Of a stretch of DNA of 64,000 nucleotides, positions 22,959-25,846 are shown in pieces. The DNA comes from Prochlorococcus marinus str. MIT 0917 (lineage in GTDB: Bacteria > Cyanobacteriota > Cyanobacteriia > PCC-6307 > Cyanobiaceae), in assembly GCF_027359575.1 (NCBI RefSeq), contig NZ_CP114784.1:1053819-1117818 (forward strand), written 5' to 3'. Position numbers and translations under genes: made by a program. Within the stretch, counting starts at the first letter, position 1. Each line of letters starts with the position of its first letter. The notes beneath the pieces are model-generated. The model was not told the DNA's origin, did no database searches, and saw only the letters and a list, made by a program, of their open reading frames with translations.

Positions 22959-23612
22959 ATGCTTTATCTTGCTCATAAATTACTTAATGAGGGACAAGTT
23001 AAAGATTTAAGAAAAAGTTTAATGCTCTCAACTGAATGGGTAGATGGAAAAAATTCAGCCAGAGGTTCTAAAGTTAAAAAAAATATACAATTAAATTTAG
23101 GAGAAACATATAATAAATTATCAAAAGAAATAATTGAAATTATCGATAAGGATGAATTAAGTAATAACTTTTCTTTCCCTTCTAAGATATTTAATATTTT
23201 ATTTACAAGAACGGGAGAAGGTATGTTTTATGGACCTCACGTAGACGTTGCTTTCACTCCTAAAGGTCGTAGAGATTTATCTTTTACCATTTTCTTAAAT
23301 CAACCCACAGATTATGAGGGAGGAGAACTAATACTTTATATAACTCCAGAAAAGAAGCAAATCAAAATGAATCCAGGAGAAATGATTATATATCCTACTA
23401 AATATCTTCATGAAGTAAAAACCGTTACTCAGGGAGAGCGAATGGTTTGTGTTGGGTGGATAGAAAGTCAAATACCAAGAGATGATGATAGAGAATCCCT
23501 TTATTTAATGAACCAAGGTATGTCATCAATAACAAACGAATATGGTCATTCAGCTGCTACACAAAATCTAAAAATTAGTTTCAACAACATTTATAAACGT
23601 TTCATGAACTAA
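22959..23612 (+). CDS. 2-oxoglutarate/Fe(II) oxygenase, PKHD-type hydroxylase-like
   Basis: 217 residues. Iron ligands H-x-D in YGPHVDVAFTP and the distal His in YPTKYLHEVKTV, followed by Arg in QGERMVCVGWIES for 2-oxoglutarate, match the prolyl 4-hydroxylase-like PKHD (PiuC) family of about 220 residues. It probably hydroxylates a protein or small molecule using 2-oxoglutarate and oxygen. Its place behind the TPR genes suggests a role in the same modification set, but this is inference. Confidence 0.85.
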   Translation: MLYLAHKLLNEGQVKDLRKSLMLSTEWVDGKNSARGSKVKKNIQLNLGETYNKLSKEIIEIIDKDELSNNFSFPSKIFNILFTRTGEGMFYGPHVDVAFTPKGRRDLSFTIFLNQPTDYEGGELILYITPEKKQIKMNPGEMIIYPTKYLHEVKTVTQGERMVCVGWIESQIPRDDDRESLYLMNQGMSSITNEYGHSAATQNLKISFNNIYKRFMN

Positions 23613-23679
23613 ATTAGTACGAATTGCGAATTAGGAATTTTTCCTGATGCGCACCGTCTATGGAATTGATTAGAAAAGG

Positions 23680-23765
23680 AAAAGCAGAACAACTCCTCAC
23701 ACATAGTTCTGTAAATGAAGAGAGGGACTCAAGCTCGCTGAAGCAGCAGGGTCCCTTTCTTAATG
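23680..23765 (+). ncRNA. Candidate small RNA carrying the Yfr1 motif ACTCCTCACAC
   Basis: Positions 23692-23702 read ACTCCTCACAC, identical to the 11-nt unpaired core of the cyanobacterial regulatory RNA Yfr1. It sits in the loop of a 6-bp stem CAGAAC / GTTCTG (23685-23690, 23706-23711). An 11-bp terminator-like stem follows (23718-23728 with 23751-23761, one G-U pair). Size and layout fit a Yfr1-like sRNA, which base-pairs with mRNAs through this motif. The 5' end is not determined. The known Yfr1 locus in Prochlorococcus is elsewhere (trxA-guaB), so this may be a relative. Confidence 0.55.
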
Positions 23766-23771
23766 CAAAAA

Positions 23772-23942
23772 TCAAGGTTTCCAATGCTCATCCCATTCAT
23801 CCTGAAGTTCTTTCTGCGATAAAGAGTTGTAGAAACCTCTCCACTTCTTTTCTGAATTTGCGTCAGTTGCACTCAATGACACCATTAGATCTATTGCTTC
23901 TTCTTTGGTAAAGGATTTGCCTTGATTTGATTTGAATATCAC
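23772..23942 (-). CDS. Small conserved-style protein, 56 residues, unknown
   Basis: Begins with GTG directly after the stop of the upstream gene (TAA-GTG) and reads MIFKSNQGKSFTKEEAIDLM, then SATDANSEKKWRGFYNSL, ending WDEHWKP. The composition is balanced and helical and looks like real coding sequence, unlike the frame on the opposite strand. The direct abutment with the 75-residue gene implies one transcript and coupled translation. Function unknown. Confidence 0.6.
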   Translation of the reverse strand: MIFKSNQGKSFTKEEAIDLMVSLSATDANSEKKWRGFYNSLSQKELQDEWDEHWKP

Positions 23943-24170
23943 TTACGAAGCAATCTCCTCCCAAGGATCACGTGAAGATAGTTCCTTGAATGGTATCAAT
24001 TTAAAATCACCTCTCCTGATACCACTACAGATCAATCCATCTGGATGTTCTCTCTTAAATATTTCAACTGCATCTTCTTTTCGTTCTGATGGAATAGTGA
24101 CTTTATAAATCACATCACCTGAATCACGAATCTTATAAACAAAAATCCAATCATATTCTTTACTATCCAT
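23943..24170 (-). CDS. Small hypothetical protein, 75 residues
   Basis: Reads MDSKEYDWIFVYKIRDSGDV, then YKVTIPSERKEDAVEIFKRE, a beta-beta-alpha look typical of small soluble domains. Its stop abuts the start of the 56-residue gene. Not recognised; no membrane segment or motif. ATG start at 24170. Confidence 0.65.
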   Translation of the reverse strand: MDSKEYDWIFVYKIRDSGDVIYKVTIPSERKEDAVEIFKREHPDGLICSGIRRGDFKLIPFKELSSRDPWEEIAS

Positions 24171-24290
24171 AATCAGTTCATGCTGACTAACTTTGTTTTA
24201 ACTCACTTTGGTCTGATGAACCAATTACACAAATGGAAACAGGTGTTTTCTCTCATGTTCCAATGATTTTGTTTGATTAGAAATGGGTTG

Positions 24291-24418
24291 AAGTTCTAGC
24301 ACTTGTCTTCCCGTAGGTCAGGGAAGTGGTTAGTTAAAGGGAATCGTATTGTTCACACGGATACACAAGTGCTGAACTTAAATTAAAGGGGGCAACCAAA
24401 ATCTTGCCCCCTTCTTTA
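24291..24418 (+). ncRNA. Candidate structured RNA: three-way junction plus terminator
   Basis: A 15-bp stem with one bulged T pairs 24291-24306 with 24365-24379. Directly inside the 5' arm is a 6-bp hairpin CTTCCC / GGGAAG (24307-24312, 24321-24326). Directly inside the 3' arm is a weaker GTAT / ATAC hairpin (24346-24349, 24361-24364). Six bases after the closing stem comes a 10-bp terminator-like hairpin AAGGGGGCAA / TTGCCCCCTT (24386-24395, 24404-24413). The compact nesting suggests a folded RNA. Strand is inferred from the terminator and could be reversed. Confidence 0.5.
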
Positions 24419-24430
24419 ATGGAAGAAATC

Positions 24431-24452
24431 AAGAACGGAGAGGGAGTGATTC
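24431..24452 (-). repeat. Partial copy of tRNA-Ser 3' end (possible attachment site)
   Basis: The 22 bases here match 25753-25774, the 3' end of tRNA-Ser plus 5 flanking bases, with one mismatch (T for G at the 17th position). Same orientation, 1322 bp apart. A short direct repeat of a tRNA 3' end is the usual footprint of tyrosine-recombinase integration. The intervening segment contains only one gene and no integrase. Confidence 0.55.
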
Positions 24453-25752: not shown

Positions 25753-25774
25753 AAGAACGGAGAGGGAGGGATTC
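25753..25774 (-). repeat. tRNA-Ser 3' end, matching partner of the repeat at 24431
   Basis: The 17 terminal bases of tRNA-Ser(GCU) plus 5 flanking bases; 21 of 22 positions are shared with 24431-24452 in the same orientation. This is the classical target position for integrating elements, with the acquired DNA lying on the low-coordinate side. Confidence 0.6.
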
Positions 25775-25846
25775 GAACCCTCGACAGAAGTTACCTCCTG
25801 TAACTCCTTAGCAGGGAGCCGCTTTCAACCACTCAGCCACCTCTCC
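25758..25846 (-). tRNA. tRNA-Ser (anticodon GCU)
   Basis: Reads GGAGAGG on the 5' side and CCTCTCC plus discriminator G on the 3' side. D-arm TGGCTGAGTGG, anticodon loop CTGCTAA (GCT, for AGC/AGU), a long variable arm and GGTTCGAATCC in the T-arm make a class II tRNA. Its 3' end faces the accessory region and is partly repeated at 24431. Confidence 0.95.

Follow-up and report, generated by a model that had tools for sequence, protein, structure and literature searches.

The window, the whole 64,000-nt stretch of the Prochlorococcus marinus str. MIT 0917 genome that was analyzed, appears to carry an additional member of the Yfr10-like small RNAs, a known kind of RNA. By analogy with its relatives in strain MED4, this paralog of about 80 nt probably acts as an antisense regulator like Yfr1 and Yfr10 and is bound by Yfr2. 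Its sequence, structure, paralogy, array context and complementarity to Yfr2 were computed. The initial annotation had pointed to an sRNA-like gene with the core of Yfr1 in an accessory region, and that much is supported.

Motif, fold and identity of the RNA

The 11-mer ACTCCTCACAC was located by an exact pattern search, which gave a single match (23692-23702, forward strand) across both strands of the window. Shuffled windows contained a mean of 0.02 matches, and 2 of 100 shuffles had one. The segment from 23670 to 23765 folds at -32.4 kcal/mol (z of -4.26), a stability reached by 1 of 200 shuffles, and the bases of the 11-mer are unpaired at 0.97-1.00 in the ensemble. Pattern search and fold thus agree with the earlier description of an 11-mer in the loop of a small hairpin followed by a terminator stem, although the fold gives that stem 13 bp and not 11 bp. 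Both sides of a pair are changed in 4 of 11 consensus pairs of the terminator-like stem and in 2 of 7 pairs of the 5' hairpin, each of the latter in one sequence only. The terminator-like stem ends in UUUCUU, a weak U-tract. In 23400-24000, a consensus scan picked out no terminator and no promoter of the sigma-70 type. Judging from the sequence, transcription would start near 23683. The features are collected in Table 1.

Table 1. Features at the Yfr10-like locus (window positions) and the other Yfr10-like copies of the genome (genome positions)
Feature	Position	Strand	Basis or context
2OG-Fe(II) oxygenase gene	22959-23612	+	upstream of the sRNA
Putative -10-like element TTAGAAAAGG	23670-23679	+	position conserved in genus-wide alignments of Yfr10-like copies
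Yfr10-like sRNA gene, terminator type B	23683-23762	+	Rfam Yfr10, 26.4 bits; genus model, 90.3 bits; fold z -4.26
5' hairpin, 7 bp, 15-nt loop	23684-23712	+	fold; 23684-23690 paired with 23706-23712; 98.4% of helix cells paired
ACUCCUCACAC seed motif in hairpin loop	23692-23702	+	pattern match; unpaired 0.97-1.00
Terminator-like stem-loop, type B, 13 bp	23718-23761	+	fold; 23718-23730 paired with 23749-23761
56-aa ORF	23772-23942	-	downstream of the sRNA; read from translation
Yfr10-like copies	1364831 and 1364376		around Yfr2 at 1364679
Yfr10-like copy	1403023		Yfr2 at 1402874
Degraded Yfr10-like copy, 39.7 bits	1746974		Yfr2 at 1746576

The best Rfam family at the site was Yfr10 (RF02362), which matched with an E-value of 0.078 over positions 1-78 of its 78. 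The score lies below Rfam's gathering score of 43 for this family, a cut-off that no copy of this genome reaches (best 38 bits). Two other sites of the 11-mer, at 1364884 and 1403075, scored 29 and 38 bits against the same model, and each is just upstream of a Cyano-1 RNA (61-63 bits). Cyano-1 is Rfam's name for Yfr2. The window RNA is therefore Yfr10-like by the description in the literature and outside the family by the Rfam threshold. MED4 Yfr10 and the Yfr10-like RNAs Yfr104 and Syr5 are described as RNAs of about 80 nt that carry ACUCCUCACAC in a 5' hairpin loop and have a stem-loop terminator (PMC6778093, PMC2518516). The window RNA has the same layout, including the stem-loop at its 3' end with the weak U-tract, but its terminator is longer than that of the Rfam family and different from it, and its stem sequence differs from that of MED4 Yfr10. 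Genes of the family often lie just upstream of Yfr2, a placement reported for high-light strains, whereas the window copy has no Yfr2 nearby; the nearest Cyano-1 on its strand is about 669 kb away. The synteny of Yfr10 is described as not conserved (PMC6778093).

Further known RNAs were compared. MED4 Yfr12 and Yfr18 are paralogous carriers of the motif that adjoin Yfr4 and Yfr5, and the motif of Yfr12 is altered (PMC2518516). They appear to differ from the window RNA in clade, terminator and copy number. Yfr103 is likewise a multi-copy sRNA of marine picocyanobacteria, but at about 300 nt (290-328 nt in Synechococcus CC9605; PMC5069720) it was rejected. The mainly open-access literature covered describes neither this copy nor a Yfr10-Yfr2-Yfr10 arrangement.

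The initial annotation had called the RNA Yfr1-type and had taken it for an additional or relocated copy of Yfr1. The genome, a single contig of 1.92 Mb, contains the 11-mer four times, compared with two occurrences of the reversed pattern; across the 17 genus genomes with a completeness of 90% or more, the counts are 69 and 15. The four occurrences belong to Yfr1, to two Yfr10-like genes just upstream of Cyano-1/Yfr2 and to the window copy. The one canonical Yfr1 (61 bits) is found where the annotation had proposed looking, between an IMP dehydrogenase ORF, read as guaB, and a thioredoxin ORF with WCGPC, read as trxA; this is the order given for Prochlorococcus in BMC Genomics 2007 (PMC2190773). 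Since this single Yfr1 is kept at guaB-trxA, the window copy is additional and not relocated. Exactly one Yfr1 match was present in 29 of 41 genus genomes and two in none, with 15 of the 17 more complete genomes having it. A second or relocated Yfr1 would share the 11-mer, but this reading is very improbable. The Rfam Yfr1 model (RF01116) does not match at the window copy, whose neighbors are an oxygenase gene and small ORFs. The architecture differs as well: the motif of Yfr1 is single-stranded between two stem-loops and that of Yfr10 is in a hairpin loop (PMC6778093), as in the window RNA. Yfr1 identity was rejected on account of the canonical copy elsewhere, the missing Rfam match and the contradictory fold.

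The hairpin also lies about 70 nt past the oxygenase gene on the same strand, and could be that gene's terminator with a chance 11-mer. This is extremely unlikely, given that paralogs with the same promoter-like box, hairpin and terminator follow different sequences in other genomes and that chance yields about 0.02 such 11-mers per window.

Copies across the genus, linkage to Yfr2 and two seeds

A DNA search with 96 nt found relatives in 24 of 300 genomes of the family; these are all 24 that had been drawn from the genus, while none of the 276 others had one. A covariance model for the genus was then built from 18 copies. It matches the window copy, itself one of the 18 sequences, at genome positions 1077502-1077578 with 90.3 bits. 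Matches occur in 39 of 41 genus genomes, with at least three copies in 35, and in all 17 of the more complete ones; outside the genus, 16 of 145 genomes from eight other genera gave mostly weak matches. Pairing in the model alignment holds in 97.8% of cells, compared with a shuffled mean of 92.6. Six pairs, including four of the terminator, show changes in both partners, and 9 of 500 shuffles reach that number.

Cyano-1 is present in 38 of 41 genus genomes. Among the best 150 of 201 model matches, 115 have Yfr2/Cyano-1 within 700 nt on the same strand. Within this same set, 81 copies are upstream of Yfr2 (77 at 40-90 nt and four at 252-301 nt) and 34 are downstream (25 of them at 217-225 nt). 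By these spacings, genomes of the genus commonly have a Yfr10-like gene followed by Yfr2, in many cases with another Yfr10-like gene after it. Linkage may be underestimated, because some of the 35 unlinked copies come from draft genomes and sit close to the end of a contig. Of the five Yfr10-like copies in the MIT 0917 genome, four are within 700 nt of Yfr2, and the window copy is the exception. One complete array (Yfr10-like, Yfr2, Yfr10-like) occupies 1364376-1364902; its second Yfr10-like copy has the altered seed CTCCTTACC. Arrays of the same order, with near-fixed spacing, are found across the genus.

Seeds were tallied at 132 places in 33 genomes, a non-random set chosen for best matches and for copies far from Yfr2; 20 of the places are without a recognizable hairpin, some being opposite-strand terminator matches. 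The 11-mer is kept in 50 of 52 tallied copies upstream of Yfr2. Terminator type B was assigned by a text pattern, so that several B-like copies (two with CTTACC) fell in the other class. Among the 40 tallied type-B copies, 26 have CTCCTTACC, which occurs in 24 of the 33 genomes when two copies classed elsewhere are included. Only five type-B copies have an intact 11-mer and 35 do not, and for this reason function through the 11-mer cannot be assumed for type B. In the window copy, the promoter-like region and terminator are of type B and the motif is intact. Three copies with quite different terminators (L071, L076 and L077) share the window copy's hairpin sequence without a difference over 28-29 nt. 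Exchange between copies would explain this combination, as would retention of an ancestral state.

One tentative model, which we regard as rather doubtful, is that Yfr10 and Yfr2 make up a multi-copy sRNA system of modular build in this Prochlorococcus clade, spreading and recombining by way of island DNA. The hairpin-terminator junction would serve as a point of exchange, the universal seed would stand upstream of Yfr2 and a new seed, CUCCUUACC, downstream. The window copy would then be a hybrid, with the universal seed on a new-seed backbone and freed from linkage to Yfr2. Were this true, copies with CUCCUUACC would regulate a different set of targets. A search for targets of the altered seed gave 45 sites with up to three mismatches, compared with 42 for the control, and the sole exact site was the copy's own antisense strand.

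Flanking genes and a variable site

The genes on either side converge, as the initial annotation had it, with the oxygenase gene on the forward strand and the 56-aa ORF on the reverse strand. Two small ORFs (75 aa and 56 aa) overlap in 23772-24170 on the reverse strand, with a presumed GTG start, and the 75-aa ORF had no Pfam match. Elsewhere in the genus, this small-ORF block is again found close to Yfr10/Yfr2 loci.

Nine matches to the terminator only were examined; one (L085) ends at a contig edge, leaving eight. These eight relatives have the terminator and the block that follows it without the hairpin. Similarity to the window begins at 23713-23715, exactly past the hairpin, and continues at 90-97% identity through the small-ORF block. 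The junction of hairpin and terminator is a putative point of exchange. Upstream, all eight (L078-L084 and L086) share an element of about 140-150 nt. It starts like the 3' end of a tRNA, with CGGAGAGGGAGGA in most, and ends in a -10-like box directly 5' of the terminator hairpin. The element may be a promoter of a short RNA or the remnant of an attachment site.

A complete tRNA-Ser gene is near the site in two of the relatives (L079 and L086), and a segment flanking tRNA-Ser is present in three more (L078, L081 and L083). Because of this, the sites in these five are probably the same as that of the window; the case is weaker for L080, L082 and L084, since other loci, too, have the small-ORF block. 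The window has a tRNA gene at 25758-25846 (reverse strand), a homolog of the tRNA-Ser (gct) gene in L079 and L086. A copy of the 17-nt tRNA 3' end with one mismatch is found at 24436-24452, about 1.3 kb from the tRNA gene, and is the only other match in the window at up to two mismatches. Taken together, the tRNA gene, the copy of its 3' end and the hairpin-less relatives suggest a likely integration hotspot in a region that is rearranged among relatives, with the boundary of an island at the sRNA or close to it. A phage origin of the sRNA was rejected after two non-exhaustive searches: phage records gave no match at E 0.1, and one hairpin pattern of fixed loop length had no exact counterpart in viral contigs.

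A second structured RNA candidate is located at 24290-24416 (forward strand). It has a long stem, GUUCUAGCACUUGU with ACAAGUGCUGAAC, and a GC-rich terminator (fold z of -4.39), and no Rfam family matched it above its gathering score. Including that of the window, 24 distinct sequences of this candidate were found among the examined loci near Yfr10/Yfr2 genes. In 13 sequences 4 of 26 pairs covary, all four in the terminator.

Pairing with Yfr2 and possible functions

In this genome the 5' arm of Cyano-1 has the sequence GUGAGGAGUUG, which is complementary to the Yfr10 loop; complementarity of Yfr2-5 to this loop was proposed in PLoS Genetics 2008 (PMC2518516). Genome-wide, complements of CAACUCCUCACAC with a single mismatch occur only in two Yfr2 genes; in the third there are two mismatches. 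Predicted duplexes of the loop with the three Yfr2 RNAs have energies of -21.1, -21.7 and -17.5 kcal/mol. Loop shuffles were as strong in 16, 9 and 84 of 500 cases, and so two of the three stand out. When the Yfr2 RNAs are folded alone, these arms are in part base-paired.

When up to two mismatches were allowed, the complement GTGTGAGGAGTTG had 27 genomic sites, compared with 23 for the reversed pattern. Of the 27, four fall on the strands opposite the motif-bearing genes and three within the Yfr2 genes. The 20 that remain show no excess over the 23 control sites in this 13-mer search for mRNA targets. With the sRNA genes removed, complementary sites were no commoner than the reversed control, and the suggested control of outer-membrane or surface genes found no support.

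According to PMC6778093, ppa mRNA is bound by MED4 Yfr1 and Yfr10 by way of the motif, with Yfr2 as a competitor. MED4 Yfr10 is also reported there to rise in darkness (Sci Rep 2019). By analogy, the window RNA would expose ACUCCUCACAC in its hairpin loop and end in a stem-loop terminator. The loop would pair with G-rich (AGGAG-like) stretches of mRNAs, altering their translation or stability, and could also pair with RNAs of the Yfr2 family, which would compete for it. We infer transcription, termination, pairing in the cell and mRNA targets of the window RNA. A promoter-like element of its own, together with the lack of a linked Yfr2 gene, could make the expression and titration of the window copy independent of the Yfr10-Yfr2 arrays.

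The RNA might instead serve mainly as a decoy for Yfr2-family RNAs from other loci, binding and silencing them, and itself have few mRNA targets or none. The one-mismatch complements, the lack of excess among the remaining sites and the genus-wide linkage of Yfr10-like and Yfr2 genes are consistent with this, as is the finding that MED4 Yfr10 and Yfr2 bind each other and that Yfr2 outcompetes ppa mRNA (PMC6778093). We nevertheless consider it unlikely, as hundreds of mRNAs were enriched with Yfr10 in MED4 according to the same paper and a 13-mer search misses short pairing of the AGGAG type. A decoy role is also compatible with antisense regulation. That the gene is a silent or decaying paralog, borne by an island and persisting from a recent duplication without expression, is quite improbable. 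Its position in a variable region, the eight relatives with the terminator block and no hairpin, and a terminator type that usually goes with an altered loop would fit such a history, but this copy has kept its motif, its stem, its promoter-like box and its terminator intact, and the degraded copy at 1746974 provides a contrast.

An antisense regulator bound by Yfr2 would belong to a broadly conserved cyanobacterial RNA network (Yfr1, Yfr10 and Yfr2) whose logic is unsettled. Genomes of this clade usually have at least three Yfr10-like genes, and most of the best-scoring ones are paired with Yfr2 at near-fixed spacing. With some copies changed in their seed and others standing alone, the clade offers a natural experiment on antagonist linkage, seed changes and sRNA targets. 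If the window copy is expressed alone, accessory DNA can shift the balance of Yfr10 and Yfr2. Among the 20 remaining complementary sites, two (L121 and L140) have an ORF starting with ATG 6 and 23 nt downstream, respectively.
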